Assembly: GCF_009389715.1 (NCBI RefSeq)
Contig: NC_052405.1
Span: forward strand, 10,618,694 to 10,682,693
Length of the DNA: 64,000 bases
Source of the DNA: Phoenix dactylifera
Lineage: Eukaryota > Streptophyta > Magnoliopsida > Arecales > Arecaceae
Direction of reading: 5' to 3'
Shown: in pieces, positions 8,870 through 62,718 of the stretch
How positions within the stretch are numbered: the stretch's first letter is position 1
How the letters are laid out: every line of letters begins with the position of its first letter
The notes under the pieces: generated by a model
Told to the model about the DNA's origin: nothing
Seen by the model: only the letters and a program-made list of their open reading frames with translations
The model's database searches: none
Program-made: the position numbers and the translations under genes

Positions 8870-9974
8870 ATCAATCACAAACTTTTTCTGTGAACAACAT
8901 ACTTTGCATGTGTCCTGTTCTGTGACCAATTGGCTACCATCTTTTTCTTGTACTCGGACCAATATTTTTAACTCTAATCCAGTTTTTAAGCAAACTGTCA
9001 ACGAGTGAGGACAAAACCTCCTCAAGAGTGCAATCTAATTCAGGAAGGACATAGCTATAATTTTTTCTTTTTTGATTGATAAAAGTATCTAACTTGAAGA
9101 AATGGCTACTAATTTAACAAACAGAAGCCTGAAAATTTTCAAAGGTTGCGTTCAAGGTCCACATCATGGGATGTCAGTGGTCTGCATCAACATATAGGAA
9201 ACATTATAATATTATTGAAGCAAACCAGCCCTCATTATTGAGAAGTTGTTGTCCCTGCTTTTATAGCTTTCTTTTCTACGAATTGGATGGACAAGTGATC
9301 TACTTTGATGTTCACCTAAAACTAAAACATAAGAAATATTATTGTCAACGTAAAGAAATAAATAATATTTATGAATCATGCAATACATCAATAGATGTAT
9401 TATTGCCAATGTATATATATATTTTAAATTTGTGGGACGGATAGAAAGCAAATTGAATAAGATATAAAAATTCAGGAGCCATATTTTAGCCTTATAAAAA
9501 AATTTAACATTCATCATGCATTACCAAAAAAAAAAAAATTCACTGCATGCCCGGCAGTAAGCTCTGTACTCCTACGTATTACCTTTAAATTTACAGTTAC
9601 CGAAGCTTGCCGCGCGGTAATAAACACGGATTCCTGACGTTTCCTAATTCAATATATAGTCACGAGTCAATGTCAGAGATCTGACCATCTTGCACGCAGA
9701 GAAGTAGATCCGATGCATTTCTACGTTCTAACACATCATAGAAGTCCATTCATATGTTGTCACCTGTAAACAAAGCAGCAAACAGGCAGATCCTGAAACG
9801 GTTGTTGCACTGAATCCATCCTTCCATCTCTTGGAAAGATCCCTTTGGTATTATCATTATTATTATTTTATTTTCCCTTCTCTTCTCCCACCAACCTCAA
9901 GGTCAAGTGCTCTCTTTTGGTTCTCCCCGCCAGCCTCTTCACCTCTATACTCCTCTCCTCGGTTCTTTTCTTCC

Positions 9975-13817: not shown

Positions 13818-16085
13818 TGAAAGAGTAGATGCCCTACAAGTCAATCGCAATATGTATTGCGAAAGGTTTTTTCTTTTGATTTGTCCAAATCATGTACATG
13901 ACATTTAAATATGAATAAAGGCGTTATGTTTTATCATATGCTGTTGATTATATTTATGATAAACTCCTTAGATTAGGGCAATGGTTTTAAGACTATGATG
14001 AGATCATACTAGTGAGACTTAAAATCCTAAAATCCTAATCTTAAATATTCCCAGTCATTGGTACATTGAGTCGGGGATCAATGATTACCGGAAAGACTGG
14101 CATGTCTTATGTATGCTCGATGCAGAGGATGATTGATCTCACAATCATTTGTGTGGAGACACTAATACAAAGATGTGGGTGCTCATTAGAGGAATGAGTT
14201 CACTGAATTGACCTACAAAGAGAAATCTTATGAAGTCTTACTTACATGTCAAAAGATGATTCTCTTAGTGGGAGTTATGCAACTGATCCTATGACCTGAG
14301 ATCACCATGGTATCTTGTGCACATGAACCCATATTTTGTTTTACACTCATTCATGACAATAAGTTATGTACGAGGTCTTCTGGATATGGTGAATTGTGTA
14401 CGAAGATTATGAGTAGGTCAACAAGGAATTAATCACTTCTAGTAAGAGAAGATAGCATCCTATTTATTCTAATCATATGATAATTCAGGAAGCCTTTGAT
14501 CAAAGCAGAATGAAAATTAGAAAGAGTTTCTAATATTTCATTATTTGAATTATCATTAAAAGATTGAGAAAAATATGAATATGAAATTGAGTTTGACATA
14601 TATTCATACTCATATACATATTTGGGATGCAGTTTGACTAAAGGATTGAATTGCATGGTAACTTGCCACTGAAGGGTATTTTTGGTATTTCCACCAAATT
14701 CCATATTTTTCGGGTAGACATGACACATTGCTAGACGTCAATTTTGTTTTATAGGTTTGATCAAATTAAAGAGTTTAATTCGATCACCAATTAGAAAGGA
14801 TTCTAATTGTTAAGTTCGGGTTCGCGCAGTTTGGACTTAAATCGATTAGAAGAGTTCTAATCAAGTTGGGTCAACTCGCACTCACACCTATTGCTGGCTA
14901 AGTATGGAACCTAATGGGTCACACACAAGAAAACTTATCAAGGGTCTAATTGGATTAGATCATGTTTGCAAGATAAACATCCTAGCAGGTGTTGCAAACC
15001 TTAGCTCCTAATTCGAATTGGATTCGAATCTGATTCGAATTGGATTCGAATCTGATTCGAATTGGATTCGAATCTGATTCTTAATTGATCTAATTTGATT
15101 AGATCATATTCTAATATGGATTAGCCAAGAGTTGGCACCTAATTGGCTTGGTTTGAGTCTAATTGGATTAGATTTAATAAATCATTCAATCTAGACCGTT
15201 AGATCTTGATCTACCGTTGGATGAAGACATAATGGAGAGTTGGTTTAACCCAATTGGATTGGGTTAGAGGATGGCTACCATAATTGACCATTGGATCTTA
15301 ATCCCACCATTGGATGAAGACATAATGGGTCAAGTGAATGGCGCCTTGCATTGGAGCCCTTGGATCATCATCATGAAAGATCAAGAGGTGAGGCGTGATG
15401 GACATGTGATTAGCATGTGATGTTGACTTGGTCAAAATATGGCACCACATGAAAGGACATATCATTTGATACACCTCCTCACTTGATCTGCACCTCCTCT
15501 TATTTGATATGGCCCTTTAGATGATGCCCTTTCATGAGAGGATGTGTGGATGGGATGCATCCCTTGGAGATGCATCCCTACACCTATTATAAATAGGTTA
15601 GCACTCCATGGGTTTCATCATTCCAATTCCACCCCACTCCTCTCTTCTTTCTTTCTTACATTAGTTTCTTTCTTTCTAGCATTGCTTCTAGTGTGTCCTA
15701 AGCCAAGACAAGGTGGTCTTCTTTAGGACAAAAGGATTAGAAGTGATTTTAGAAGGCTAAAGGAAAATAGAAAGAAAGGAAAGCAAGCCATTAGAGTTCT
15801 TTAGAAGAATTCTGCATTAAGGATCAAAAGTCTTTGGAGCTAAAGTCTTGATCAAGTTTTCGTGTGGATCACCATTGGAGGGCGGACACTTGGACGCCTC
15901 GTGGAGATTGTACACTTTGGATTAGCGTTTGAGGTATTCTACTAATCCTGCATTTATTTTATATCATTTGATTGTAATCATTAAGGTGATCTAGGCTTAA
16001 AAGGGTTTCATGCATAGGGACTTTATTAAGAAATTTTTAAACATCCCTAGCTTCCGCTGCGCATCATATATGCTAAAACCCTTCA
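13818..16085 (+). repeat. Copia 5' LTR
   Basis: This 2268-bp LTR has TG...CA termini. A TATA-like CTATTATAAATAGG lies near 15584-15597 within it. It contains three copies of a 22-bp TTGGATTCGAATCTG-type unit near 15015-15080, one more than the 3' LTR. The small ORFs inside it recur identically in the 3' LTR and are not genes. Confidence 0.95.
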
Positions 16086-16086
16086 G

Positions 16087-16103
16087 TGGTATCAGAGCCA
16101 TCC
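16087..16103 (+). promoter_or_regulatory. Copia primer-binding site
   Basis: TGGTATCAGAGCCATCC begins one base after the 5' LTR. It is complementary to the 3' end of initiator methionine tRNA, the usual primer for minus-strand DNA synthesis in plant Copia elements. Confidence 0.9.
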
Positions 16104-16647
16104 TTAATTGGTTCAATCAAATAATAATGCATGATGTATGATTAATAATTTACTATGAGATAGTAATGTCATATGCTTAATGAAATGCTGAAATATATGA
16201 TTCATATATGATATGTTATGTAATAAAATATCATGATATGAAATTTTCCATATGAAAATATGTTGAAGCATATTAATTAAATTGCTTATGATTTATACAT
16301 GCTATGAGATAGCCATGATGCATAATAGTTTATTTTAGACATGTTAAATATATGTTACAATTAAAGAATGTGCTAGAGACTAGTAAGCCCTCAATAAAAT
16401 TATATTAAGTCATAGTGTTGAAAAACTTTGAGCTAACCCATTCTAGAACAATTAATCTAATTGGTGTCTAAGGAAAGCACTAAAGGTGGTTACTTAATTA
16501 GGACCTTACTCTCTGAGTAAGGGGAGCCTCCCACCTGCTTACCTGGCCAATTGTTTGATTGCCTATTATGGATAAGCTTAATATTGATATAACACTATTG
16601 ATAGCCTTCCTTCATGCCTCGATATTATTATGTCAAGATCCATGCTA

Positions 16648-16947
16648 GTTTGTTGTGCTAACACAAGACTTGCAATGGGGACTGATGTTATACTGTCTTG
16701 GTGCATTAAGATGCTTATGGCATATTTTAATATATTGCCTTGTTGTGCAACCACAAGGGCAATATTATTCGAATATGACTATATGGAAATGAAGGATTTG
16801 ACTTAACTAAAATATTATTGTTTGTTGTGCTAACACAAGGCAATAAGTATTTTAAGAGGACAAGATAAAGTTGAGAATTGCATGAGATGCAATTGGAAAG
16901 AGTTTCCTACCTTTGAACTCATAAGAGTTTGTTGTGTAAACACAAGG
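16648..16947 (+). repeat. Four spaced copies of a 20-bp hairpin motif in Copia leader
   Basis: GTTTGTTGTGCTAACACAAG or a close variant occurs at 16648, 16738, 16820 and 16927, spaced 82-107 bp apart. Each can pair TTGTG with CACAA across a 4-nt loop. The array lies in the untranslated leader between the primer-binding site and gag, where packaging or dimerisation signals would sit. That function is inferred only. Confidence 0.8.
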
Positions 16948-17140
16948 CTTTTTATGATGAATTAGGATCTCAACCCTACTAAGAAAAATTATATTTTTAT
17001 GTTTATCATAGGAGAGGGCTATGATATTCGATAAAAATAGTAGGAGACAAATTAGATTAAAGTCCTTATCTAGTTGCAAACATGTCATCATGATTGGTCT
17101 GCTTATATTAGTTTTGTTCTTGCATATGTAGAATTATTAA

Positions 17141-20100
17141 ATGGCTTCTTCACTTTCACTAAGAGGCATCTTAGATGCCAACAAGTTGACCGGACCAAAC
17201 TATGTGGACTGGTTGAGGAATTTAAAGATAGTACTCACTCAGGAGAAAATTTCCTATATACTTGAAACCCCTGATCTTGGAGATCTAGGGGATGATGCTA
17301 CAGAAGAGGAGGTTGCCACACATAAGATGTGGAAAAATGACAGTGTGACTGTCAAATGTATCATACTTGCCTCTATGAACAATGAATTACAGAGGCAACA
17401 TGAAGGCATGGACACTCAATCCATACTTCTCAATTTAAAAGACTTGTATGGAGAACAAAGCAGGACTGCTAGGTATGAGATATCTAAGCAGTTGTTCCGT
17501 GCTAGAATGAATGAAGGAACTCCAGTGCAAAACCATGTTCTTATGGTTATAGACTTGATCACCAGATTAAGTCAATTAGGTTTTGCTATGAATAATGATC
17601 TCAGTCAGGATTTGATCCTGCAATCACTGCCTGATTCATTCTCTCAGTTTGTTGTGAACTTTCACATGAACAAGCTGAACACCTCCCTGCCCGAGCTGTT
17701 AAATATGCTCAAAACAGCTGAAGGGCATATTAAGAAGGATAAAGGTCCACTCCTTCTTATAAATAGCACCTCTATGAGGAAATCGGGAAATAAGGGTTCT
17801 AAGAAACGATTGAACCCCAAGAGTAGCATCAAAAAGAAAAAAGGAAAGAAAAACTCCGGATCAAGTACCTGTTTTCATTGCGGCAAAGCTGGCCACTGGA
17901 AAAGAAATTGCAAGAGTTTTCTTGCAAGTATGAAGACCGATGCAAGAGTTGCATCAAAAGGTATGTTTATGTTACATGCCAACTTGTCATTAAGTTCTTC
18001 AAATTCAAATTCATGGGTATTGGATACCGGCTGTGGTTTTCACATTTGCAAATCTTTGCATGGACTACAGAAAATTAAAATTTTGAAGAAAGGTGACTTC
18101 GAGCTGTATGGCGCTGGAGGAGAGTCCATCCAGGCTGAAGCTGTTGGAACCTACAACTTGGAATTGCCTTCGGGAAAGCTCCTACAATTAGAAGATTGTT
18201 ATTATATGCCCAAAATTATTAGAAATGTAATTTCCATTCCTTTGTTGTTAAAGAAAGGTTTTGAAATTAATGGAAAGGGCAATGGTTGCTCTATTTATTT
18301 TTCTAATAAGCATCTTTGCAATGGCATTATGGAAAATGGTCTTCTAGTTTTATTACTTAATGACAATGTCTTTCATATTAATAAAAGCAATAAAAGAAAG
18401 AGAGAGGAAGTGAATAATACCCTCCTTTGGCATTGCCGACTTGGTCACATAAGTGAATCAAGAATCAACAAGTTATACAAAGAAGAGTTCTTTGATCCTT
18501 ATGATTATGAATCATTAGGAACTTGTGAATCTTGTCTTATGGGAAAAATGACCAAGTCTCCATTCACTGGACATGGAGAAAGGGCAAGTGAGTTATTAGG
18601 ACTTATACATACAGATGTATGTGGTCCTATGACAACTCCAGCTAGAGGTGGATACTCTTACTCCATCACATTCACTGATGATTTATCAAGGTTCGGATTT
18701 GTGTATCTTATGAAACATAAATCCGAAGCCTTTGATAAGTTTAAAGAGTATCAAAGTATGGTTGAAAAACAAACCGGAAAGTGTATTAAAATCCTTCGAT
18801 CTGATCGAGGAGGTGAATACCTTTCTAGTGAATTTTTAAATCATCTTAAAGAAAAGGGTATTCTCTCTGAATGGACACCTCCGTATACGCCACAACTAAA
18901 TGGTGTAGCTGAACGGAGGAATCGTACTTTATTAGATATGGTAAGGTCCATGATGTGCTTTACAGATCTTCCTATTTCCTTCTGGGGTTATGCCTTAGAA
19001 ACTGCTACATATGTGCTAAACAGGATACCTTCAAAATCTGTATCTAGTACTCCATATGAGATATGGAGAGGTAGAAAGCCCAATCTTAAATATTTTAAAA
19101 TATGGGGCTGCCAAGCATATGTCAAAAGAAATTTTGGACATAAGCTAAGTGCTAGATCAGATAAATGTACATTTATAGGTTATTCCAAAGAAAGTATTGG
19201 ATATCTCTTCTATCACCCTACTGAACAAAAGGTATTTGTTAGTAGGCATGCCACTTTCTTAGAAAAAGAATTTATCTTAGAAAAGGGCAGTGAAAGAAGA
19301 ATTGAACTTAATGAAGTTCAAGACCTACAAATAGAAACACAAGAAATTCTTCAACCAGATGTACCCATTGATGAAGTACAACCACAACACACATCTCCTC
19401 TCCAAAGGTCAGATAGAGTGCGAAATGTACCTAAGAGGTATGGGTTTATCATTGAGAATGATGAAGCCCACATCGTCGAAAATGATGATCCTCTGACCTA
19501 TTCGGAAGCTATCATGAGTAATGACTCTAACAAATGGTTAGAAGCTATGAAATCCGAAATAGACTCTATGTATACCAACCAAGTATGGACTTTGGTTGAT
19601 GCACCAGAAGGTGTAAACCCTATAGGTTGCAAATGGGTCTATAAGAAAAAGATTGGAGCAGATGGCCAAGTAGAAACCTACAAGGTTAGATTGGTGGCAA
19701 AAGGTTTCAGGCAAAAGCAAGGAATTGACTATGATGAAACTTTTTCACCAGTTGCCATGCTTAAATCTATTCGGATTTTGCTTGCAATAGCTGCATACTA
19801 TGATTATGAAATTTGGCAGATGGATGTCAAAACTGCCTTCCTTAATGGTTATCTTGAGGAAGAGGTTTACATGACACAGCCAGAAGGATTTGTCTCAAGT
19901 GGGAGAGCAAATCAAGTATGCAAGCTTAAGAGATCCATTTATGGATTAAAGCAAGCATCGAGGAGTTGGAACATCCGTTTTGATACAACAGTCAAAGAGT
20001 TTGGTTTTATCAAAAATGTGGATGAACCATGTGTGTACAAGAAGACTAGTGGGAGTGCCGTTGTCTTCTTAATATTGTATGTAGATGACATACTAATCAT

Positions 20101-21048
20101 TGAAAATGATATTCCAATGTTACAATCGGTCAAGACTTGGCTATCAAAAAGCTTTTCCATGAAAGACTTGGGAGAAGCATCCTATATACTTGGTATAAAG
20201 ATCTATAGGGATAGATCTAAAAGGATGCTAGGCTTATCCCAGTCTAAGTACATAGATCGTGTGCTGAAAAGATTCAGCATGGAAGGAAGTAAAAGAGGTT
20301 ACTTACCTATGAGTCATGGCATACGTCTCTCTAAGAAGATGTCTCCTAAAACATCTGAAGAGAGGAATAGAATGAATTCTATTCCCTATGCTTCGGCAGT
20401 AGGATCAATTATGTATGCTATGCTATGTACTAGGCCTGATGTTGCTTATGCCTTAGGCATAACAAGCAGATTCCAGGCTGATCCAGGAGAAAATCATTGG
20501 ATAGCTGTAAAAAATATTCTTAAGTACTTAAGAAGGACTAAAGATATTTTTCTAGTTTATGGAGGATCTGAGTTGAAACTAGAAGGATTTTCTGATTCTA
20601 GTTTTTAATCAGATCCAGATGATAGCAAGTCCACTTCAGGGTATGTCTTTACCCTAAATGGTGGTGCAGTGAGCTGGAAGAGTTCCAAGCAGCAAACTGT
20701 AGCTGACTCAACTACTGAGGCAGAATACATCGCTGTAAGTGAAGCCGCTAAGGAAGCTGTCTGGATGAAGAAGTTCATCGCTGAGTTGGGAGTAGTTCCT
20801 GAGATTGCTGGACCAGTTTTAGTTTATTGTGATAACACTGGAGCTGTTGCTCAAGCAAAGAACCAAGATCTCATCACAAATCCAAGCACATTCTAAGACG
20901 CTTCCACCTCGTTCGAGAGATCGTCGAGAGACAAGACATAGTCATTGAACGAGTAGACACAAAGAACAACTTAGCAGACCCGTTCACTAAAGCTCTACAC
21001 ACAACAGCAGTTCGATCGCCACCTCGATTGTATGGGGATAAAATATAA
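17141..21048 (+). pseudogene. Copia gag-pol, two lesions
   Basis: The frame opens at 17141 with a Copia gag domain (residues 1-210). A zinc knuckle C244-x2-C-x4-H-x4-C257 follows, then the protease motif DTG. The pre-integrase HxxxC region, a DDE integrase core, the reverse transcriptase (YVDDILI near 20080) and RNase H come next. A nonsense codon TAA at 20606-20608 (codon 1156) interrupts the start of RNase H; a C-to-T change from CAA would explain it. A one-base deletion near 20860 then shifts the frame. The frame after that shift runs on to TAA at 21046-21048. Everything upstream of RNase H is open. These breaks affect only the RNase H end of the polyprotein. Confidence 0.93.
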
Positions 21049-21078
21049 GAGCGATTAGCTTTAGTGCAAGTGGGAGAT

Positions 21079-23324
21079 TGAAAGAGTAGATGCCCTACAA
21101 GTCAATCGCAATATGTATTGCGAAAGGTTTTTTCTTTTGATTTGTCCAAATCATGTACATGACATTTAAATATGAATAAAGGCGTTATGTTTTATCATAT
21201 GCTGTTGATTATATTTATGATAAACTCCTTAGATTAGGGCAATGGTTTTAAGACTATGATGAGATCATACTAGTGAGACTTAAAATCCTAAAATCCTAAT
21301 CTTAAATATTCCCAGTCATTGGTACATTGAGTCGGGGATCAATGATTACCGGAAAGACTGGCATGTCTTATGTATGCTCGATGCAGAGGATGATTGATCT
21401 CACAATCATTTGTGTGGAGACACTAATACAAAGATGTGGGTGCTCATTAGAGGAATGAGTTCACTGAATTGACCTACAAAGAGAAATCTTATGAAGTCTT
21501 ACTTACATGTCAAAAGATGATTCTCTTAGTGGGAGTTGTGCAACTGATCCTATGACCTGAGATCACCATGGTATCTTGTGCACATGAACCCATATTTTGG
21601 TTTACACTCATTCATGACAATAAGTTATGTACGAGGTCTTCTGGATATGGTGAATTGTGTACGAAGATTATGAGTAGGTCAACAAGGAATTAATCACTTC
21701 TAGTAAGAGAAGATAGCATCCTATTTATTCTAATCATATGATAATTCAGGAAGCCTTTGATCAAAGCAGAATGAAAATTAGAAAGAGTTTCTAATATTTC
21801 ATTATTTGAATTATCATTAAAAGATTGAGAAAAATATGAATATGAAATTGAGTTTGACATATATTCATACTCATATACATATTTGGGATGCAGTTTGACT
21901 AAAGGATTGAATTGCATGGTAACTTGCCACTGAAGGGTATTTTTGGTATTTCCACCAAATTCCATATTTTTCGGGTAGACATGACACATTGCTAGACGTC
22001 AATCTTGTTTTATAGGTTTGATCAAATTAAAGAGTTTAATTCGATCACCAATTAGAAAGGATTCTAATTGTTAAGTTCGGGTTCGCGCAGTTTGGACTTA
22101 AATCGATTAGAAGAGTTCTAATCAAGTTGGGTCAACTCGCACTCACACCTATTGCTGGCTAAGTATGGAACCTAATGGGTCACACACAAGAAAACTTATC
22201 AAGGGTCTAATTGGATTAGATCATGTTTGCAAGATAAACATCCTAGCAGGTGTTGCAAACCTTAGCTCCTAATTCGAATTGGATTCGAATCTGATTCGAA
22301 TTGGATTCGAATCTGATTCTTAATTGATCTAATTTGATTAGATCATATTCTAATATGGATTAGCCAAGAGTTGGCACCTAATTGGCTTGGTTTGAGTCTA
22401 ATTGGATTAGATTTAATAAATCATTCAATCTAGACCGTTAGATCTTGATCTACCGTTGGATGAAGACATAATGGAGAGTTGGTTTAACCCAATTGGATTG
22501 GGTTAGAGGATGGCTACCATAATTGACCATTGGATCTTAATCCCACCATTAGATGAAGACATAATGGGTCAAGTGAATGGCGCCTTGCATTGGAGCCCTT
22601 GGATCATCATCATGAAAGATCAAGAGGTGAGGCGTGATGGACATGTGATTAGCATGTGATGTTGACTTGGTCAAAATATGGCACCACATGAAAGAACATA
22701 TCATTTGATACACCTCCTCACTTGATCTGCACCTCCTCTTATTTGATATGGCCCTTTAGATGATGCCCTTTCATGAGAGGATGTGTGGATGGGATGCATC
22801 CCTTGGAGATGCATCCCTACACCTATTATAAATAGGTTAGCACTCCATGGGTTTCATCATTCCAATTCCACCCCACTCCTCTCTTCTTTCTTTCTTACAT
22901 TAGTTTCTTTCTTTCTAGCATTGCTTCTAGTGTGTCCTAAGCCAAGACAAGGTGGTCTTCTTTAGGACAAAAGGATTAGAAGTGATTTTAGAAGGCTAAA
23001 GGAAAATAGAAAGGAAGGAAAGCAAGCCATTAGAGTTCTTTAGAAGAATTCTGCATTAAGGATCAAAAGTCTTTGGAGCTAAAGTCTTGATCAAGTTTTC
23101 GTGTGGATCACCATTGGAGGGCGGACACTTGGACGCCTCGTGGAGATTGTACACTTTGGATTAGCGTTTGAGGTATTCTACTAATCCTGCATTTATTTTA
23201 TATCATTTGATTGTAATCATTAAGGTGATCTAGGCTTAAAAGGGTTTCATGCATAGGGACTTTATTAAGAAATTTTTAAAATCTCTAGCTTCCGCTGCGC
23301 ATTATAACATGCTAAAACCCTTCA
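21079..23324 (+). repeat. Copia 3' LTR
   Basis: This 2246-bp LTR is preceded by the polypurine tract AAGTGGGAGAT. It is 22 bp shorter than the 5' LTR, exactly one TTGGATTCGAA-type tandem unit (two copies here, three there). Apart from a few substitutions and one compensating pair of 1-bp indels near the end, the two LTRs match. Confidence 0.95.
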
Positions 23325-26720: not shown

Positions 26721-27229
26721 GAGTGTTTTAACTTGTTTCTGAGTGCTACCATAAGAGGATCTGAGTTTTTCTAGTGTTGTCAGCACCCTTATGTCCAGAA
26801 ACCAATTGGTCTTAGATTTTGTCCTGTTATGATTCTGAAAAAGAATTCCTAGATGTGGGCATTTCTCCAAGTCCAACGTCGCAGTCCAAATACAAATCCA
26901 AAAAAAGCTGCTACTTAACTGAAAATAAAAACATAAAACAACAGAAAGATTTCACAAGCCAAATCAACTGCCACCATTGAACACCATTTCCCTTGCTACT
27001 CAACTCTTGGCGCATCTCTTGTCCACCTCTCTTAAAGTTGCTGAAGTTGGTGGCTTCTCCATTTAACTCAAAAAACAACAACAGCCTGCCTAATAATTGA
27101 GAGCGCATGGAAGAATAATTGCCTCCAGTCGAAGTCATGACTCATGAATGAGTGTCTTCTGGATGAAATAAGAGAAGTTTAAGTCTGACCATCTCTCTTT
27201 CCAGCTTCAACTTCAATTAGGGGTTTATT
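26721..27229. other. Intergenic upstream of MIR827
   Basis: No gene found. The right part is probably the distal MIR827 promoter. Confidence 0.45.
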
Positions 27230-27235
27230 CTCCTA

Positions 27236-27243
27236 GAATATAC
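27236..27243 (+). promoter_or_regulatory. P1BS element 1 (PHR binding site)
   Basis: GAATATAC fits the palindromic GNATATNC consensus bound by PHR-type MYB factors during phosphate starvation. It lies about 65 bp upstream of the TATA-like box of MIR827. Confidence 0.7.
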
Positions 27244-27264
27244 TGTTTGATAGAATTATTCCAA

Positions 27265-27272
27265 GAATATAC
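27265..27272 (+). promoter_or_regulatory. P1BS element 2 (PHR binding site)
   Basis: A second GAATATAC, 29 bp after the first. Two P1BS sites in the proximal promoter fit a strongly phosphate-responsive gene. Confidence 0.7.
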
Positions 27273-27301
27273 CATCTATCCTATTTCATTATTTAATTCG
27301 T

Positions 27302-27307
27302 TATAAG
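27302..27307 (+). promoter_or_regulatory. TATA-like box of MIR827
   Basis: TATAAG at the right distance (about 77 bp) before the hairpin base, with transcription expected near 27330. Confidence 0.5.
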
Positions 27308-27378
27308 AGACCACTCACTTTCTCTCTAAAGCTTCTTGCATGCTGTGGCCATTGGGAAGCTAAGAAGTATGCAGCTTT

Positions 27379-27482
27379 GAATGTGTTTTGCTGATGGTCA
27401 TCTAATCATCTTCAAATCTTCTCTTCCCCTCTTTAATTTGAAGCGTGAAGACATGGTTAGATGACCATCAGCAAACGCATTC
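27379..27482 (+). ncRNA. MIR827: MIR827 precursor hairpin
   Basis: The two arms GAATG...CTAA and TTAG...CATTC fold into a long, almost perfect stem with an AU/CT-rich loop. The 3' arm holds a 21-nt sequence that starts TTAGATGACC and ends CAGCAAACG. From memory this differs from rice miR827 only in the last base. miR827 is induced by phosphate starvation and in monocots targets SPX-MFS vacuolar phosphate transporter mRNAs; in Arabidopsis it targets the ubiquitin ligase NLA. Two P1BS boxes and a TATA-like box lie just upstream, in agreement with PHR control. No protein gene overlaps it. Confidence 0.92.
27457..27477 (+). ncRNA. miR827: Mature miR827
   Basis: The 21-nt mature strand lies on the 3' arm, with 5' U as expected for AGO1 loading. 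It pairs with the 5' arm at about 27385-27405, leaving a single bulge near the 3' end. The complementary strand at about 27387-27407 would be the star. Confidence 0.9.
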
Positions 27483-28039
27483 ACAAGACATGCACATCTC
27501 TCTGTGTTTTGATTTGTCTATTATTTGCTTTTGGTAGTATCTTTTATGTTCGACTCTGAGTAGACTTATAAGGTTCATTCGTGAGTACTCCCACTGCATG
27601 TTTTCTATTCTACCTTGATTTTTGAATAATTTTACCTTTAGATGAAGAAAAATCTTATAACCTTTTGTTATGTTAATGTTAAATTCATTTTTGTGTGTTC
27701 TGTTCTAGATCTACTTTAGGATGCACAATTGTGATTGCTTAGCAATTAGATCTTCTGATACAGCTTTCTCTCATTGTCTACTAATTAGTGAAAAATCATC
27801 AAATTCCCATCATATTTTTTTATCTATTAAAAAACAGATATTAGTGGCTAGTGCAATTCTAAGATTCTAAGAACCACTTTCTCTTAATTGCATGTTTATT
27901 GCCCAAGCTTCCTTGTATCCTTTTCCACTACTTCTATCTAATTTGTGCTTTTATTAATGCAGAATTCATAGCAGGATAACAATGGTGACATTGTAGATGC
28001 TGAATTGCGAGTGTAGGGTAGAATGTGAGAAGCCTTGAG

Positions 28040-38210: not shown

Positions 38211-38477
38211 GCCCATTCCTCCCTCATTCTCACCACACCAAACCTCTCATTCTCTCCTTCTCTACTGCTATTATTTCTCTCTTCAAAGTGCTCTTCTAGC
38301 AATTTAATTTTTAGTTTGTTCAAGTGCTACACAAGAGGAGGTTCCTGTTGAGAAGAGAAGGTCGCTTCTGTTGAGAGCACAAGAGGAAGCTCGGAATCTC
38401 GGCTCTGCCTCTGCCCTCCGACCCTCTACTCAATTCCTCCTTGCGGTTAGTTTTTATTTTTTGAATTAATCATAGAT

Positions 38478-40502
38478 ATGTCATCTTTTGAGGAAAGTCA
38501 GTTTGGCATTCCTGTTTCTGAGGGAGAAGAAACTAATCCCCAACCCCCTGTTCCTAGTTCCTCTAGAACTGGTGAACCGAGTGAAGGTCAAACCTCTTCT
38601 CGTAAGAGGACTAGTACTGTATGGAATGAATTTGATAGAGTTATGGTTGAGGGAGTCTGGAAAGCTAAATGTAAAAAATGTGCCAAACTTTATAGTTGTA
38701 GTAGTAGTGGGGGAACAGGGCATTTAAAAAGACATCAAGAGAGTCATAGGATGCATGATTCTCATGCTCAAACTCAAAGTAGCCTTAATATACAAGGGGG
38801 ATTACTTGTAGGTAATTTTGCATATAATCATGAAAATCAAAGAAAAGCACTTGTAAAATGGATAGTTAAGGATGAATTACCTTTTAGTTTATGTGAATCT
38901 TTTAATTTTGAAGAATATGTTCAATTAAACCTACAACCTGCTTACAAAAGAACTAGTAGGCGTACATTTAGAAGAGTAGCTATGACCAATTTTTTAGCAA
39001 TGAAACAAAATTTAATTGAAACACTTTCTACTTTAAATGTAAAAATTTCATTAACTTCTGATATTTGGTCAGCATCTGTAGGTAGTAATTGTTTTATTGC
39101 CATTACTGCTCATTATATTGATAATGATTGGCAATTAAATAAACGTATTCTTGCTTTTCGTGCTTTTGATTTTCCACATTCTGGGCAACAAATTTCAAAT
39201 ATAATTTATCAAACTGCATGTTCATATAATATTAATGATAAAATTATGTCTATTACTTTTGATAATGCATCTAATAATAATTCTGCTGTTGTATTATTAA
39301 AAGACTCATTGCATCCCATATTAGATGGAAATTTACTGCATATTAGATGTGCATGTCATATCTTAAATCTTTCTGTTCAAGCTGGCATGGGCATGATTCA
39401 AGATGTGATTTCAAAAATTAGAAATGCAGTTTCTTTTATTCATGCTTCTAGATCAAGACTTCAAGAATTTAAGGAATTATGCATAAATCATGGTAAACGT
39501 TTTAAAAAATTTAAACTTGATGTAATTACTCGTTGGAACTCCACATATAGCATGATACATGATGCATACCCATATAAAAATTTATTAAGTGCATATATTA
39601 ATGATCGTGGATTAGGATTTACATTGACTGAAACTGATTGGAATAAAGGAAAAATTTTGGAAGATTTTTTGCTTAGTTTTTATAATGCTACCAATGTTCT
39701 TTCTGGTATTTATTACCCTACTTCATGTTCATTTTTACAACAAGCATATATAATTAGTCAAAAATTTGCAGAACATAGATATGATGATGTTTTAATGCCT
39801 ATTATTCACCTAATGGAATCTAAATGGAATGAGTATTGGGACAGGATATGTCCTATGCATAACTTAGCTGCTGTATTTGATCCTAGAGTTAAATTAAATG
39901 GCGTGCTAATTTTACTTGATGCATACGCTGAAAATATGAATCAAGATGCTGAATCTGCTAAAGATGAGGTAAGACAACTTCTTTATGATATTTATGCTAT
40001 ATATGATGAAAAAATTCGTGGATCTAGAACACAAATACAAACCTCTATTCCTCCTTCTAGTAGTTCTCGTTCGTCATCTATTTTTTCATTCATTGCACAG
40101 AGAAGACACACACATGCTTCAAGTTCCTCTTCATCTTCTTCATCTTTAAGTAGTGAACTAGAATTTTATTTACGAAATGATCTTCAGTCTGCATATGATG
40201 AAAATCAAATAGAGAATCTAGATGTATTATCTTGGTGGAAGAGTGTTAGAAATCAATATCCTGTTATGTCTGCAATTGCACGCGATATTTTAGCTGTGCC
40301 GATGTCCACGGTAGCATCGGAATCCGCTTTTAGTGCAGGTCGGCGTGTTCTTGACGAAAAGAGAAGTAGGATGACGGGCGAAACGGTGGAGATGCTTCTC
40401 TGCTTCAAGGATTGGCTGGATGCTGAGGCAAGACTTCAAGATAAAGGTGGACATAATACAACATCCTCTGATGATGATGATACAAACACTACTGAAGACT
40501 GA
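38478..40502 (+). CDS. hAT transposase, BED zinc finger, full length
   Basis: The 674-aa single frame has no internal stop. A BED zinc finger occupies about residues 48-92 (C65-x2-C68 and H86-x3-H90) for DNA binding. The RNase H-like core follows, with catalytic aspartates at D195 (LTSDIWS) and D262 (ITFDNAS). The RW motif in VITRWNSTYSM comes next. The third acidic residue is E615 in VASESAFSAGRRVLDEKR. Residues 560-660 are the hAT C-terminal dimerisation domain (WWKSVRNQYPVMSAIARDIL). Ser-rich linkers lie near 520-550. It resembles plant Tag2/RICESLEEPER-type hAT proteins. The enzyme would excise and reinsert the element through hairpin intermediates in flanking DNA. The start is the first ATG in a CT-rich leader. 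A domesticated gene is unlikely because the ends and target duplication are intact. Confidence 0.92.
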   Translation: MSSFEESQFGIPVSEGEETNPQPPVPSSSRTGEPSEGQTSSRKRTSTVWNEFDRVMVEGVWKAKCKKCAKLYSCSSSGGTGHLKRHQESHRMHDSHAQTQSSLNIQGGLLVGNFAYNHENQRKALVKWIVKDELPFSLCESFNFEEYVQLNLQPAYKRTSRRTFRRVAMTNFLAMKQNLIETLSTLNVKISLTSDIWSASVGSNCFIAITAHYIDNDWQLNKRILAFRAFDFPHSGQQISNIIYQTACSYNINDKIMSITFDNASNNNSAVVLLKDSLHPILDGNLLHIRCACHILNLSVQAGMGMIQDVISKIRNAVSFIHASRSRLQEFKELCINHGKRFKKFKLDVITRWNSTYSMIHDAYPYKNLLSAYINDRGLGFTLTETDWNKGKILEDFLLSFYNATNVLSGIYYPTSCSFLQQAYIISQKFAEHRYDDVLMPIIHLMESKWNEYWDRICPMHNLAAVFDPRVKLNGVLILLDAYAENMNQDAESAKDEVRQLLYDIYAIYDEKIRGSRTQIQTSIPPSSSSRSSSIFSFIAQRRHTHASSSSSSSSSLSSELEFYLRNDLQSAYDENQIENLDVLSWWKSVRNQYPVMSAIARDILAVPMSTVASESAFSAGRRVLDEKRSRMTGETVEMLLCFKDWLDAEARLQDKGGHNTTSSDDDDTNTTED

Positions 40503-41445: not shown

Positions 41446-43357
41446 AGTGTAGCCGTAGTCGTTGTTGGAGTTTTCAGTTTATTTATAGGAGGACATGGCG
41501 TGGTTTAAAGCTGTATAAGAAAGCAACAATTCATTTTTTTCCCCATTTTTGTTTTTCTTCTTTTCGCCCCTCGCTTCTTGTTATTTTATACCTTGAAATA
41601 AAGAAGACATCCAAATTTCTTTTCTTTCTCTCGTGATTCCAGAGGAAGGAGGGGATTTTCTGGTATTGTCGCAAAAAAGAAAAAGTACTGGAGATCGACT
41701 TTTGTATATATATATATTTTTTACAATTTATTGAGGAATTAAACCATTCAATCAAATAAAAACATTTTTGATATATATATAATATATGTATACGTATGTA
41801 TGAATGTTTGTATGTATATGGGTTAATATTGGGATTAGGTCAAGTAATACTTTGTTGAGCTTGCGTGATTATTTTATTCTCTTTTTTGGTGGTTGCATTG
41901 AGAGTCTCTTTGATTACATCTACTATGGGGCATTTATTTCGTGCATAAGAGAAATTTTTTCACCTTGTGACATGAGAGGGTTGGTGAAATTAATATAGAG
42001 TGGGGTAATATACTAGAGATTTTTATTGTTGAGCTAACAAGCCAGCATTATAAAGATCTGTGAAGCACGTACATTTTGCTCATTATATCATTTATGTTTT
42101 TTTTAATGATATTTATGATAGGTAAATGGACACATTGTTGAAAATGCGATGACATTAGATTTTCTTTGCTATGGTCCGAGAAATAAATGATTCTGAAAAA
42201 TCTATTTTCTCAACTTTATTTAGAACTTTTTGAATATTTTAAGATTGAGCAAAGATAGATATTATTTTTGCATCCGATAAAAATGATAATTTTTCTCCAA
42301 TATAGAAACTTTTGCCTAATCTTTTTTTCATAAATTTTTTTGTCTAATTCATTTGGAACTAATTAACTATTCAGCAAATAGTTTAACTTAAGGGCTGCCG
42401 AATCGGACCAAACCATCCAGTTCAAGCAGTACCGAACTGATCCGGTGTGAAATCAGGTTGGTTTATCATTCATATTCGGTTCCAGCCCCTACCAGCCGGA
42501 ATCGGTCATTTATCACATGAAACCAGTCGGAACTGGCCGGTTCGGTGCCGACTGGGTGCAAACTGGCCGGTTCATACTAAGTCAACTCGATTTCAAATCA
42601 GGTTGGGCCTCGGCCACCTGCCACTGCCCTACCGTTTTAGTATGGTATCGAACCGTATTGAGCGTCGAATGGTATGGGTCTCGGTACCGGTTTGGTGGAC
42701 CTTAGTTTAATTCTTGTAAGAGCTAAATAGTTTGAGCTAAGTGGAGTATACTGTTGACAAGGTTGGTCCCATTTGTTGGGCTTGGGGGTAACTCATATAA
42801 AAACTGCATAAAGCTTAATTGACTAGGTCTACTCTAGTTGAATTGTCTATTCGCATACTGTAACCCTATAATTCATTACACATTCTCCCCTTGCCCCCCT
42901 TCCCTCCCTCCCTCCCTCCCCCCCCCCAACACCGGGGCAAAAAAAAAAAACAGAAAAGAAAACTTTCATGATTACTCTAGTTTAATCTTGTGCGAGCACC
43001 AAATGGAAAGAAAAGCTTTAGCAAGTTCTTTCAAGCACTCTAAGAAGACTTCGTTCAACAACTGTTGGGATATTGCATGAGACATCCCTGTATCAACTCC
43101 AAAGAGTTACAAAGCTCTAAAATTAAATATCATGAATAATGATATTAGTTTTCCAGCCAATTGCATGTTAACTAGTATAAAGGATCAAAACTAGATACTT
43201 GTAGCTGTTACTCGTGTTGATCAAAATAATCCACATACTATGAATTTGCATAAGCTTATCCTCACAAAACAATAAGATTGTCTCATAGTTTTCAATGGAA
43301 GATAAGAAACAAATCTATCATCTCATTATCCAATAAGATACAAGGGTTGTCAGCAAA
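41446..43357. other. Intergenic, no supported gene
   Basis: AT-rich sequence with a repeat block at 42390-42710 and C/A homopolymers near 42900-42950. No gene is seen. Confidence 0.5.
42390..42710. repeat. CCGGTT/GGTACCGG-rich dispersed repeat, copy 3
   Basis: Repeated GGCCGGTTC, CAGTCGGAAC and GTACCG words on both strands, ending in GTCTCGGTACCGGTTTGG. It is related in composition to 28040-28195 and 34195-34345. Confidence 0.5.
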
Positions 43358-43368
43358 GCCTGTCATGC

Positions 43369-45420
43369 ATGCTGGGTTTGTGGGGGCGCGAGGAAGCGAG
43401 CGAGGAGTGCGGGTGGGGTGGGGATCTGTGGGGAGATAGGTCGAACAGCTTTGGGGTGTGGACCATGGTCGGTCCTGGAGCTGGGCCGGAGTCGCCGGAG
43501 GTGGGGAAGGTCGGTGGGGTGAATCCCAATGCTCCCAAGACTACGACGAAAGGTCCGTCGTGGGCGGATGTGGCTAGGGGTGCGCCGCGGGGAGCGACGA
43601 GGCAGCCGGAATGGACGCGCCATCGGATATCTCCCCGCGAACTGGAAGTAATGCAGAACCGTTTTACCGAGGTGGTGGTGGTGCCGGAGGAGGAGCTGGA
43701 GGCGGCACGCCGGGAATGGAGGAGCACCACTGTCTTGGTGAGGAGCCTGGGGAGGAGCGTTCCCGGTGACTGGGTGGCGAGGGAAATGCAACGGGCTGGA
43801 CGGCTGGAGTACAGGGTTGGGTGCTTCCCGTTGGCGGAGGGGTTCACTGCCATTAGATTCGCAAATGAGGCGGACAGGGAGGCAGCTGTGCGGAATGGAC
43901 CTTGGATGGTCGGTGGCCAGATGATGGCCGTGGAACGGTGGCGGCCCAATTTCATCCCAGATGCCGGAGGAATTGGGCGTGTAGTTGTTTGGGTCCGTAT
44001 GCCGGGCCTCCCTCTGGACTATTGGAAGAAGGAAACCATCCTTCGGATTGCAGCGAGGGCTGGCAATCCACTGGCTTTGGATGGTTTCACAGAGAAGGGT
44101 AGCAGGTTCGGCTTTGCTCGGGTGAAGATTGAGCTGGACGGCTCCGTCCCGCTCACACCGGGAACTTTCGTGATGGGGAGCTCGGCAGGGGTAGAGACGA
44201 AGTTTTGGCAAGGTTTTGTATATGAAAACTTGCCGGAACCGTGCTTCAACTGTGGGAGAATCGGCCATTCAGAGGTGCAGTGTACCTTTAGGTCTCCGGC
44301 GAGGGAGGCGGTGGAGGAAACGGAGATGGAGGAGGGGAGGAAAACTGCTGTTGAGAAGGAGGTTATGGAGGCTACTGGGCAGGAGGCCAGGGAGGAAGAT
44401 GGATCCAGGGGGGTGGAGCGGGCTTATGGCCCGTGGCTGGTCACTAACCGGACCGGATTCCGACGGGCGCCGGTGTCGTCTAGCCGGAGGAAGGAGATGA
44501 ACGAAGCTAGGGCGGGGAAGAGCTCGGTGCCCACACCTTCCTCTCCTGGTCCGAGTGTGGTGGGGGCTGGCTCGTCTCCGGCGACCTCTCCGGCGGATCT
44601 TGAGGGGTGGCAGAAGCCAACCAAGGTGGCTCGCCGGCGGACACCGGAGAAGGATGTCTCCTTGGGAGTGGCCACGGGAGGACCGAGTCAACTCGCGCCC
44701 GGGTCCGGGTCGGGTGCCGAGTTGGGTGAGAAGTCGGAGGGGCAGGCCGAATTCGAGTTGGGCCCGGGTGTGGGGAAGCCCAACTCCGGAGATGGCCAAT
44801 GCTCGGGTGGACCGGGCCCGAGTCCGTCTAAACGGGCGAGAAGTCCACCCTACACGGTGGGCCAGAAGGTGGGAGGTCCTTCCATGGGGGGGAAGGCTCA
44901 TTCTGATCCCTCGGTGGTGAGGCCAGGGCGGCCGGGGACTACCTTCCACCGGAGGTCCAAGAGCTCCCCTCCGCCTCTTGCGACGGCGCGCGGCCGGCCT
45001 CCCCGGAGGGAAAAGGTGCTCAGGGCTGGTAGCAATGGTCCGCAGGCATCGGGGGGAGCGGAGTCGTTTGGGCGGCGTTTGGCTCCGGTGCTTCCCGCGG
45101 CGGCAGTTTCGGCCGAAGTGAAGACGGCGGGGTCGTTCGGTGCCGGTAAGGGTCTGATGGTGGAGTCCGACGGTGGAGCGGCTGGGGGTGATGGTTTGGC
45201 TACTGGCGCAGAAGATGTAGGCGGTGTGGGGAATAGCTCAAAGCAGGGTGAGTGCCGTGCGGCACGGGGGCATAGCGGTGAGGTTGTCCCGAGTCTCCCA
45301 AACCACCCTTCTTCTGAGAGGGGATTGAGGAGGAAGGTGGTGGGTGAGTCAGGCTCCATCAAGCTTGGTGGTGATGCCAACACTGAGGCAAGAGGGGGGC
45401 TGACAGGGGGCTTGTGGTGA
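43369..45420 (+). CDS. LINE ORF1, RNA-binding protein
   Basis: The frame is 683 aa. Residues about 110-190 form a DUF4283 domain (STTVLVRSLGRSVPGDW to AVRNGPWMVGGQMMAVERW). A CCHC zinc knuckle follows at C292-x2-C295-x4-H300-x4-C305. The second half is low-complexity Gly/Pro/Ser/Arg. ORF1 proteins bind LINE RNA and form the transposition particle. A downstream ATG at 43465 is an equally good start. The stop at 45418 probably follows a 1-base deletion in the G run at 45394-45399. The alternative frame continues to 45626 and its TGA overlaps the ORF2 ATG. Confidence 0.88.
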   Translation: MLGLWGREEASEECGWGGDLWGDRSNSFGVWTMVGPGAGPESPEVGKVGGVNPNAPKTTTKGPSWADVARGAPRGATRQPEWTRHRISPRELEVMQNRFTEVVVVPEEELEAARREWRSTTVLVRSLGRSVPGDWVAREMQRAGRLEYRVGCFPLAEGFTAIRFANEADREAAVRNGPWMVGGQMMAVERWRPNFIPDAGGIGRVVVWVRMPGLPLDYWKKETILRIAARAGNPLALDGFTEKGSRFGFARVKIELDGSVPLTPGTFVMGSSAGVETKFWQGFVYENLPEPCFNCGRIGHSEVQCTFRSPAREAVEETEMEEGRKTAVEKEVMEATGQEAREEDGSRGVERAYGPWLVTNRTGFRRAPVSSSRRKEMNEARAGKSSVPTPSSPGPSVVGAGSSPATSPADLEGWQKPTKVARRRTPEKDVSLGVATGGPSQLAPGSGSGAELGEKSEGQAEFELGPGVGKPNSGDGQCSGGPGPSPSKRARSPPYTVGQKVGGPSMGGKAHSDPSVVRPGRPGTTFHRRSKSSPPPLATARGRPPRREKVLRAGSNGPQASGGAESFGRRLAPVLPAAAVSAEVKTAGSFGAGKGLMVESDGGAAGGDGLATGAEDVGGVGNSSKQGECRAARGHSGEVVPSLPNHPSSERGLRRKVVGESGSIKLGGDANTEARGGLTGGLW

Positions 45421-45622
45421 TTGAGGATGCCACTGGTGACCGTGTGTGCCATTTGGCACAAGCTGGTGACGGGAAGGATCACCACCGAATGGTTGATCGT
45501 TTGATGAATGCAGCAAAGGGGGTGAGGATGGCAGGCTCGGAGAGTGGAGGGACTAATGAAGAAGCTGTGTTTCATGATTGCAGCCCCGGGGTAGGGGGTT
45601 GTGATGTTTCCCTGGGTGACCC

Positions 45623-48600
45623 ATGAAGGTTATCTTATGGAACTGTCGTGGCGCGGGGAAGCCTTCTTTTGCGCCGGCTTTCCGCAGGATGGTGCAGTTG
45701 CATAGTCCGGAGATATGTGTGTTGTTTGAGACCCGGCTATCCGGTAAGAGTCTACAGAAGGCTAGGAGAGCGGTTCCCCGGTCATGGGGATTTTATGCAG
45801 TGGAGTCCCAGGGGTTGGCGGGTGGTATTATAGTCACTTGGGCGCAGGGCTCTTGTAGGGTGGATGTGTTCCATGTATGTACACAGGAGGTGGTTGTAGT
45901 GATTTCGGAGGGCAGCAGAGTTTCATGGGTGCTTGCTGCAGTGTATGCCAGTACTGACTTCAGGGAGAGGCGGAGACTGTGGGAGGAGGCGTCTCAGTTG
46001 ATTAGTCAGGGGTATCCTATGATGGTGGCTGGTGACTTCAATTGCATTGTTGATCCTCAGGAGAAGATGGGGGGGAAGCCTTTTTCTTATGAGAGGAAGG
46101 TTAGGGAATTCCAAGACTTTTTGACATCGAATGGTTTGATAGATCTGGGGTTCTCCGGTCCCAGGTTTACGTGGTGCAACAATCAGCAGGGCCAGGCGAG
46201 AGTATGGGAGCGACTTGATAGGGCCTGTGCGACCGCTGGGTGGATTCAGAGCTTCCCGGATCACCGTGTGAGCCACTTGCCCAGGATGGCGTCGGATCAT
46301 AGTCCATTACTGGTGAGTACAGACACTTATATTCCAGTACGACCTCCCTTTAGATTTGAGAAAATATGGCTTTGTTATCCGAGATCATGGGAGATGGTGA
46401 GGGAGGCATGGAGTGCACCAGTTAGAGGAGATGCTATGTATCGGGTGTCCCGCAGATTGGAGTTGACAAGGAGGCGGTTGAGGAGGTGGAACCGTGAGGA
46501 GGTGGGAGACATTTTTAGGAGGATTGAGGAGTCTGAGGAGGCTATTGCTAGGTTACAGGCTCAGGAGGACCAGGGAGGTGGCCTTGCGGATGGGGAGATG
46601 GGGGAGCTCAGATCATTATTGACATTGCATGATGGTCTCCTTAGACAGCAGGAGATTTTTTGGAGACAGAAATCGAGGGTACAATGGATTGTGGAGGGGG
46701 ATAGAAACACTAGATTTTTCCACCAGGCGACAGTTATCAGGAGGCATCAGAACAGAATCAGAGTTATCAGGGATGAGGGGGGGCAGCTGTCGGAGGATCC
46801 GGAGAGGATTCAGAGGGTTATGGAGAGTTTTTTCAGGGCTAGGTGGACAGAGCAGCCTACAGGTGGGAGCATAGTGGATATCCTTTCGCCTGAGGTAGGG
46901 GTATCAGAGGAGGAGACAACAGAATTGACTAGACCAATTTCGGAGGTGGAGATCAGAGAGGCAGTGAGGTCCCTCGCGGGGGACAAGGCTCCAGGGCCGG
47001 ATGGCTTCCCACCCTTATTTTTTCAGAGATATTGGATGATAGTGGGTTGAGATGTGACGGCGGCTATACAGCAGTTTTTCAGCACAGCTGTGATGACATC
47101 AGAGTGGCAGAGGACTTTCATTACCTTGATACCGAAGCGGCAGGATGCCACGGAGCCGAGTCACTTTCGTCCGATTAGCCTTTGTACGACCATGTACAAG
47201 GCGACGACGAAGATCCTTGCGGTCCGATTGCAGTGTGTTCTTCCTAGGCTTATTAGCCCAGAGCAGGGGGCCTTTCTGGAGGGGCGGAGTATCTCTGACA
47301 ATGTACTTATTGCCTAGGAGTTCATGTTCGATCTTGGTAGGGCTCCGGTGAGGAGGAGTTTGATGGGGATCAAGCTAGATATGGAGAGGGCCTATGATAG
47401 GGTGAGATGGGATTTCTTGCAGCAGTCCTTGCGGAGGTTTGGATTTCCTGAGTCGTGGATCAGGTGGGTGATGGGCTGTGTGTGTGTCCCTTCCTTTGCT
47501 ATCCTGGTGAACGGGACGCCATCCCGGTTTTTTGTGTCGGCAGGGGGGTTGCGTCAGGGCTGCCCCCTCTCCCCCCTATTGTTCATCATGTGCTCAGATG
47601 CACTGTCTAGAGCACTACGACGGGTAGTGGCTTCTCAGGAGTTGGAGGTTTATAGACCGGTGGTGAGAGCTCTTCCGATTTCCCATTTGTTGTTTGCTGA
47701 TGACTGTTTGCTCTTGGTCAGGTCGTCAGTGCAGACGGCCCGGATCATCTGTGGGATTATTCGGGACTATTGTGCAGCATCAGGACAACGGGTCAATTTG
47801 ACCAAGTCATCTATTATTTTCAGCCCAAAGACCAAAGTGGCAGTGAGGCGGTCTATAGTGGAGACCCTGGGGGTGGGAGAGCAGGTGGGCATGATGACAT
47901 ATCTAGGGGTCCCACTCTACGGTCAGCGGTTGCGGCGGAGGGATTGTACAGCTATGGAGCTCAGCATCAGACGGAGACTAGAGGGGTGGCAGATGCATAC
48001 ACTCTCGATGATGGGTAGGATCACTCTGGTTCGCTCAGTTCTTACCTCGGTTCCTATCTATCTACTTTCCAATACTCTCATTCCAGTTACAGTCCTGAGG
48101 TCTCTTGAGCAACTGTTCAGGAACTTTATTTGGGGGAGATGCAGTGGCAGGGGGGGTATCCATTTATTGTCCTGGGATGTTGTGTGCCAGCCGGCTAGCT
48201 ATGGAGGTTTGGGGGTGCAGTCCCTAGTGGCGACACGGGAGGCACTGATTGCCAGACATGCAGTTAGACTTGTGCTTGAGCCAGAGGGTATGTGGTCCTC
48301 GCTGATGAGGGCCAAATATGGTGCCTTGGTTCCTGGGATGCGAGCTGGTCGTCACCATTCTCCGATTTGGAGGGAGATTTGTACTCGAGCAGGGGTGGTA
48401 CTTCCAGAGATTAGATGGATCATAGGCGATGGTCGGTCTATTGATGTGCTGGAGGATAGCTGGGTGACCGAGATACCGATCTGTCGCATGCCGACTATGG
48501 TTGATGTGACGAGTTTAGATGGCTGCAGGGTTAGCGAGCTGCTGACATCAGAGGGGGCCCGATGGAGGGAGGAGATGGTCCGGGAGGTCTTCGGGGAGCA

Positions 48601-49783
48601 GCTGGCGGAGTCGGTTTTGTCTCTTCCGGTTTCCATCGACGGGGGGGGGGGGGGGGGGGGGGGGGGCGACAGGCTAGTATGGGGTCCGACGGGACGGACG
48701 CGAGTGCGTGTCAGAGATCTCCGTGCACTGCTTGATAGGGAGCCGGCTCGTCAGATTGAGGGTGGCTGGATATGGAGATTGCGGATTCACCCGCGAGTGG
48801 CTTTATTCATCTGGAAGGTGGCCTGGGGCTGCCTTCCTACGAGGAGTCTGTTAGCCTCGCGTGGCATGGCGGTCTCTCAGTGCTGTGAGGAGTGTGCAGA
48901 TAGTGAGGAGACGATCGAGCATGTTATCTTGCACTGTCCCAGAGCCAGAGAGATATGGAGGAGATCACCGATCCTACTACCCGACTCGATAGTTTCTGCG
49001 CAGGATATGATACAGATGGTGAGAGCATCCATGTCGAGCCCCCGATCTGTGGAGGTAGGGATTTTGGTGGCATACCTGTCCTATCACATTTGGTTGGATA
49101 GGAATGCCGGACTATTTGAGGGGAGGAGGTCGTCCCCGAGGAGGGTGGTGGATAGAGCGACGCTATCTGCGAGGGAGGTTTTTGCGGCTGCTATGCGGTT
49201 TTCTTCTGGGATAGTCAGGGACATCTGGGGTACTCTCCACGCTGCTTCAGCGCCCCGTTTTGCCCTTGTTTCCTGGGTACCCCCACCCCTTGGCTATCTC
49301 AAAGTAAACTTCGACGGCAGTCGGTCAGTGGATGGTGTGGCTGGAGGGGTTGGTTTTGTGGTTAGGGACCACCTTGGCAGGATGATAGCAGTAGGAGGAC
49401 GACGCACGCCTGGACTCACAGTGGTTGGAGCAGAGCTGCGGGCGGCTTGGGAGGGATTATCCTATGTGTGGCGAGTACTTGGTGTGGAGCGGATCTGTCT
49501 TGAGGGAGACTCATCTGTGGTTGTCGACTGGCTTCGAGGGGCGGATCGGTTCGGGGATGGCCATCCCCTTATTCGGGAGGCTCGGAGGATGGTGCGGTTG
49601 ATGCACGATGTTCAGATAGGACATGTGTTCAGGGAGGCGAACAGGGCTGCATACTGGGTCGCCTCTTATGTTGCCCGGCACTCCGGTGATTTTACCTGGA
49701 CGTCTGATTATGACGTTCCTCCTTCTTTGCTCTTTTTACTTTCTCGCGATTTAGCAGGTTGTACTCACGTTAGAGTTATATGA
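45623..49783 (+). pseudogene. LINE ORF2 (endonuclease-RT-RNase H), two nonsense codons
   Basis: One frame of 1387 codons runs from ATG 45623 to TGA 49783, interrupted by TGA at 47048-47050 (codon 476) and TAG at 47315-47317 (codon 565). Both can arise by single transitions (from TGG and CAG). The apurinic-type endonuclease covers residues 1-230 (WNCRGAG, FETRL, AGDFN, SDHSP). The reverse transcriptase follows (GDKAPGPDGFPPLFF, FRPISL, FADD near 47690), then the zinc-binding region. RNase H at the C-terminus (NFDGS, AELRAAWEGL, LEGDSSVVVDW) keeps its D-E-D triad. A 26-nt G run sits in frame at 48641-48666. Target-primed reverse transcription would need full-length protein, so this copy is probably inactive on its own. 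Confidence 0.92.
48641..48666 (+). repeat. G homopolymer, 26 nt, inside LINE ORF2
   Basis: The tract encodes consecutive glycines and happens to keep the frame. Any length error of the assembly would shift the frame of the zinc-binding and RNase H parts. Confidence 0.85.
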
Positions 49784-52003: not shown

Positions 52004-52281
52004 GGCGTCTCTTCCCCCTCTCCCAAACCCTGACCCTTGCTCTCATCGAGATAGAGCCGTTGGAGGGGCCAAAAAAGGGGCCTTTTTTTTATTTGAATTG
52101 GAGACAACGTGGGGGCTCTTCGAGATTCGATACAGTCCCCCTTTTTAAAATCTCCGTCCGACGCGAGGTAGCTTCCAGTAACCGTCCATTTGGAGATCTG
52201 ATCGACTTGGACGTCCGGATCGGTCGGTGGGACATCACATGGACGGCGGAGATTGGTTGGCCTCTTTTCTTAGCTCGGTCG

Positions 52282-62599: not shown

Positions 62600-62718
62600 A
62601 TTATTCCTAGAAGATTTATCTCATTTCCCTTGATCCTATACAAGTATATGCGAAGATTTCGTTTTGTTTTTATAAAACAGTTCAAATTTCGTGTTGCTGT
62701 GTTTTGGCAGAAAGAAAC

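Follow-up and report, generated by a model that had tools for sequence, protein, structure and literature searches.

The hairpin in the 64-kb stretch of date palm DNA analysed here (the window, taken as a whole) raises the question of whether it is a genuine MIR827 gene, how such a gene would be controlled, and on which mRNAs its product would act. In the reading that we favour, to which we assign a probability of roughly 93% as a whole, the locus is date palm MIR827, the sole copy found, driven by PHR through P1BS boxes and giving rise to a miR827 that lowers SPX-MFS mRNAs (Table 1).

Table 1 Features of the MIR827 locus in the window and putative miR827 sites upstream of SPX-MFS genes (C2, C5 and C136 are contigs of the genome).
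Feature	Position	Strand	Basis or remark
P1BS box 1, GAATATAC	27236-27243	.	145 bp upstream of hairpin
P1BS box 2, GAATATAC	27265-27272	.	116 bp upstream of hairpin; 29 bp after box 1
Alternative TATA-like box, TATTTAA	27290-27296	+	91 bp upstream of hairpin
TATA-like box, TATAAG	27302-27307	+	79 bp upstream of hairpin
MIR827 precursor hairpin (RF03692)	27381-27481	+	Rfam match and fold
Predicted miR827*, 5' arm, 22 nt	27386-27407	+	MFE pairing; ends inferred
Mature miR827, 3' arm	27457-27477	+	Mature-sequence match and pairing
Putative SPX-MFS site, C2	C2:13653940	-	4441 bases upstream of start codon; score 1.5
Putative SPX-MFS site, C5	C5:6248858	+	4256 bases upstream of start codon; score 3.5
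Putative SPX-MFS site, C136	C136:516528	-	3631 bases upstream of start codon; score 5

When the window was searched against Rfam, the MIR827 family model RF03692 matched the hairpin over its full length (model positions 1-125 of 125) with 66.1 bits (E = 9.7e-11), clearing the gathering score of 65 bits by a narrow 1.1 bits. It was the sole match above any gathering score within the 64 kb. Positions 27370-27490 fold with a minimum free energy (MFE) of -55.4 kcal/mol and a z-score of -10.36, with none of 200 shuffled sequences folding as well, and the miRNA stem persists when the hairpin is folded with a wider flank (27330-27530). The mature miR827, TTAGATGACCATCAGCAAACG, is a UUAGAUGACCAUCA-type sequence on the 3' arm, the arm that also carries the miRNA in Arabidopsis, and all 21 of its bases are paired in the MFE structure, the final one as a G-U pair. 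The star arm has a single bulged base, T at 27389, which accounts for the predicted length of miR827*; its ends were set by the 2-nt 3' overhang rule and are hence putative. An earlier note, made from the letters of this DNA, had named the hairpin miR827 and held that the rice sequence differs only at the last base. The first claim is borne out by the RF03692 match, the z-score and the mature sequence, and the second is confirmed by the sequence listed in Table 1 of PMC2607281, where rice osa-miR827a reads UUAGAUGACCAUCAGCAAACA, with A as its last base where date palm has G and with the remaining 20 of 21 bases identical. Family model, fold and mature sequence together support the assignment of the locus as a MIR827 gene, and we infer that the gene is complete at the transcript level.

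The window lies at C14:10618694-10682693 of a genome of 773,078,369 bases in 2391 contigs. On contig C4 of this genome, the methionine of an open frame with a Myb DNA-binding domain falls precisely on 24,051,178, the first coordinate given for VIRESCENS on date palm chromosome 4 (24,051,178-24,054,765; PMC10673830), in keeping with a date palm assembly. A profile search of the genome with RF03692 placed MIR827 at this locus only. The two rows that it returned both belong to this hairpin, one per strand, the plus strand with 66.1 bits and the minus strand with 53 bits. The search scored 55 of its 47,166 first-look candidates and might therefore have overlooked a poorly matching second copy. The score near the cut-off, together with a young Copia element that ends about 4 kb upstream, might suggest a decayed MIR827 copy or a relic inverted repeat that no longer yields miR827. 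We consider this extremely improbable, as no further copy was found in the genome, all of the mature bases are paired, the mature sequence is intact and has matching sites in two SPX-MFS paralogues, and the pair of P1BS boxes is intact as well.

The upstream sequence was analysed for elements of phosphate-starvation control. P1BS is the binding site of PHR1, and PHR controls starvation genes (PMC11062440). The earlier note had described two P1BS boxes and a TATA-like box 70-145 bp upstream of the hairpin, and the promoter elements located here agree with that description (Table 1). Across the window, GNATATNC occurs 10 times against 17.9 expected, indicating no overall enrichment, and of these ten sites only the two in front of the hairpin lie close together. 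In 40,000 first-order Markov simulations trained on positions 26900-28000, at least two sites fell within 150 bp, a span picked after the sites were seen, in 0.0225% of cases, and within 500 bp in 0.435%. These frequencies bear on the possibility that the MIR827 gene is real and its P1BS boxes are there by chance, with no PHR control. Given how common GNATATNC is in AT-rich DNA, as its ten occurrences in the window illustrate, such a coincidence is conceivable, but we hold it to be unlikely, both on account of the local simulations for the 150-bp span and because several P1BS are present in MIR827 promoters elsewhere, with four copies each in Arabidopsis and Nicotiana benthamiana (PMC6296076). 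By analogy with those promoters, date palm MIR827 may well be a PHR-controlled phosphate-starvation gene, with the two GAATATAC boxes in its proximal promoter as candidate sites of this control. The TATA-like boxes are weak evidence, the DNA being AT-rich; transcription would start near 27330.

The order of the TATA-like box and the hairpin points to the plus strand as the transcribed one. Were the minus strand transcribed as well, another miR827-like RNA would result: the 5' arm on that strand reads TTAGATGACCATCAGCAAAAC, which has two mismatches to the mature sequence, and the minus strand folds with a z-score of -6.69 and reaches 53 bits with the MIR827 model. However, any near-perfect hairpin behaves in this way and the minus-strand score falls short of the 65-bit cut-off, and we therefore regard a second, minus-strand product as very improbable.

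The rest of the window contains several transposable elements and putative exons. The Copia LTR retrotransposon upstream of MIR827 (13818-23324) has a long gag-pol frame (17141-20605) and 2.3-kb LTRs that are 98.5% alike, suggesting a young insertion. Downstream of MIR827, a hAT transposase frame of 683 codons (38451-40499) has dimerisation and RNase-H-like domains, and a LINE-type element (43306-49780) has DUF4283/zinc knuckle, endonuclease, reverse transcriptase and RNase-H-like domains. An exon resembling CPSF73, an mRNA 3'-end endonuclease, lies at 6422-8098, and a LOB-domain (LBD) transcription factor exon at 62611-63183. For the segment 10625-11047, Sec61 beta was considered and rejected; its similarity is to the terminal part of cytochrome b5, of whose gene it may form the final exon, with a weak match of 17.3 bits that is below the Pfam cut-off of 23.7. 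A 695-codon open frame on the minus strand (49958-52042) has no Pfam match at E 0.001 and probably represents an uncharacterised plant gene. No tRNA was found in a tRNA search.

To which mRNAs, then, could the mature sequence pair? The genome was searched for the perfect complement of the 21-mer with at most three mismatches, with no gene named beforehand. As a result, 12 sites were found genome-wide, two of which are the hairpin's own arms. One reversed pattern, used as a control, gave one site, and an equal-base estimate gave about 13, so that the number of sites is no evidence by itself and the weight rests on their position. Three of the ten non-hairpin sites are located 3631-4441 bases upstream of the start codons of SPX-MFS genes on contigs C2, C5 and C136. 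These genes begin with MVNFGKRL or MVNFGKKL; the exon after the start reads YYINYKLMKKKVKQY in C2 and C5, while for C136 only the later part of the exon was read, KEFSRMLDDQVCE. All three genes have an SPX exon that scores above the Pfam cut-off, followed by an exon with matches to MFS_1 and Sugar_tr. Of these single-exon matches, that to MFS_1 is below the cut-off throughout, and that to Sugar_tr passes in C5 and C136 and fails in C2. The C2 and C5 genes align over most of their length including introns and look like a duplicate pair, whereas C136 is more distant.

In a three-way alignment, the sites of C2, C5 and C136 occupy the same columns and are followed by a common GAAGCAT and a common donor-like GGTAAT, and each gene has a TATAAA 90-108 bases ahead of its site. 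With a TATAAA upstream and a donor-like GGTAAT downstream, the site most likely lies in a noncoding first exon, separated from the start codon by a presumed leader intron. None of 5000 shuffled complements matched as well within the 5 kb upstream of each of the three SPX-MFS starts. By the terms of the earlier note, a genome lacking any miR827 target site in SPX-MFS or NLA would have refuted its reading; with the site or a remnant of it in what appear to be the 5' leaders of three SPX-MFS genes, its reading stands.

The three sites differ in how well they would be cut. In the scoring of miRNA targets, a mismatch counts 1 and a G:U pair 0.5, doubled at positions 2-13. By their pairing, the C2 site should be cut well, the C5 site, with a mismatch at miRNA position 9, should be cut less than C2, and the C136 site, with mismatches at positions 7, 10 and 19, is probably decayed and not cut; given these mismatches, cleavage at C136 and C5 may be poor or absent. 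Opposite the last base of miR827, both the C2 and the C5 site have a G, which leaves this base unpaired, so the last-base difference from rice should be irrelevant to targeting.

The other seven non-hairpin sites are on C4 (two, with scores of 2 and 3.5), C256 (3), C3, C10 and C354 (4 each) and C15 (5). Three of them (2, 3 and 3.5) score as well as or better than the C5 site, and the score alone therefore cannot single out the SPX-MFS genes. The best of them, C4:6945652 (locus L017, positions 9253-9273, minus strand), has two mismatches and is situated some 110 bases beyond a PPR-like open frame of like strand, in which the PPR_2 match is below the cut-off; it could be a further miR827 target. 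No SPX exon was noticed within the 3-kb loci of the C3, C10 and C354 sites, and downstream 10-kb stretches were taken in for seven of the ten sites. The C10 and C354 sites are in copies of one sequence beside frames that, by eye, are apparently RNase-H-like and LINE-type.

A genome search for SPX domains, in which all 59 candidates were scored, returned 20 rows, assigned by eye to SPX-MFS (3), PHO1-like (9, from three loci), SPX-only (4) and NLA-like (3) genes and to one low-complexity frame. None of the 12 complement sites with at most three mismatches is on C216, C135 or C13, the contigs of the NLA-like loci, and the best scores in the roughly 10 kb upstream of these loci were 10.5, 10.5 and 9.5, respectively. 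An NLA 5' leader with a miR827 site was thus not found in these stretches; the NLA-like first exon was located only for C13, and the leaders of C216 and C135 may for this reason lie beyond the stretch searched. According to PMC11062440, miR827 targets NLA in Brassicaceae and Cleomaceae, and PHT5 homologues elsewhere. The missing NLA site is therefore expected in date palm, which is outside these families. The NLA-like loci on C216 (L046) and C135 (L047) share 99.1% identity over 3.1 kb and run in opposite orientation, as would recently duplicated loci or a single locus present as two haplotypes.

Taken together, these data are consistent with the following model of the date palm MIR827 system. 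In phosphate-starved plants, a MYB factor of the PHR type, freed from SPX proteins, would bind both P1BS boxes, and transcription would start from the TATA-like box. The transcript would form the hairpin (27375-27487), from the 3' arm of which a Dicer-like enzyme would excise the 21-nt miR827. In Argonaute, miR827 would pair with the leaders of mRNAs for SPX-MFS proteins, vacuolar phosphate importers of the PHT5/VPT type, lowering chiefly the C2 mRNA and more weakly the C5 mRNA, and with less SPX-MFS, less phosphate would be locked in the vacuole. PHR binding, transcription, Dicer-like processing, phosphate induction and cleavage are proposed here by analogy with known miR827 systems. More tentatively, and as a possibility that we do not yet favour, SPX-MFS may have been duplicated while a single MIR827 was kept, so that three targets with graded sites (near perfect in C2, mismatched at 9 in C5, and at 7/10/19 in C136) would set vacuolar phosphate import copy by copy, through strong cutting, through weak cutting or decoy-like binding, and through escape. 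In a perennial desert crop genome, coordinates can now be given for promoter boxes, miRNA and target sites of a phosphate-storage switch. Physiologists are thereby provided with testable elements, among which the graded target sites lend themselves best to a test.

The date palm locus belongs to a known kind of miRNA and leaves the general understanding of miR827 unchanged; it may be compared with several known systems. The exact 21-mer TTAGATGACCATCAGCAAACG was not found by a literal search of the literature, in which its first 20 bases were found (e.g. PMC2607281), and no paper on date palm miR827 was found in the literature searched, supplements being outside its scope. A date palm miRNA survey (PMC3738527) treats 21 other families, with 827 absent from the main text. 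In rice, MIR827 is likewise a single intergenic locus with SPX-protein targets, of which one 5' UTR site is cut (PMC2607281); two rice SPX-MFS genes are under miR827, and the barley degradome points to both (PMC7941915). Oil palm miR827 has one family member, as in date palm, and under salt and drought it goes down while two predicted SPX-MFS targets go up (PMC8573918, PMC9539919); a third predicted target, LOC105054157, goes down rather than up under drought (PMC9539919). Both oil palm studies concern salt or drought and neither concerns phosphate. Compared via targets, date palm differs from oil palm in having a third SPX-MFS gene with a probably decayed site. Arabidopsis MIR827 resembles the date palm gene in having several P1BS in its promoter (PMC6296076). 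Arabidopsis miR827, however, cuts NLA (PMC11062440), whereas the date palm NLA-like loci are without a site of at most three mismatches. With date palm, a palm genome joins those behind the reported rule that, outside Brassicaceae and Cleomaceae, the targets of miR827 are PHT5 homologues and not NLA.
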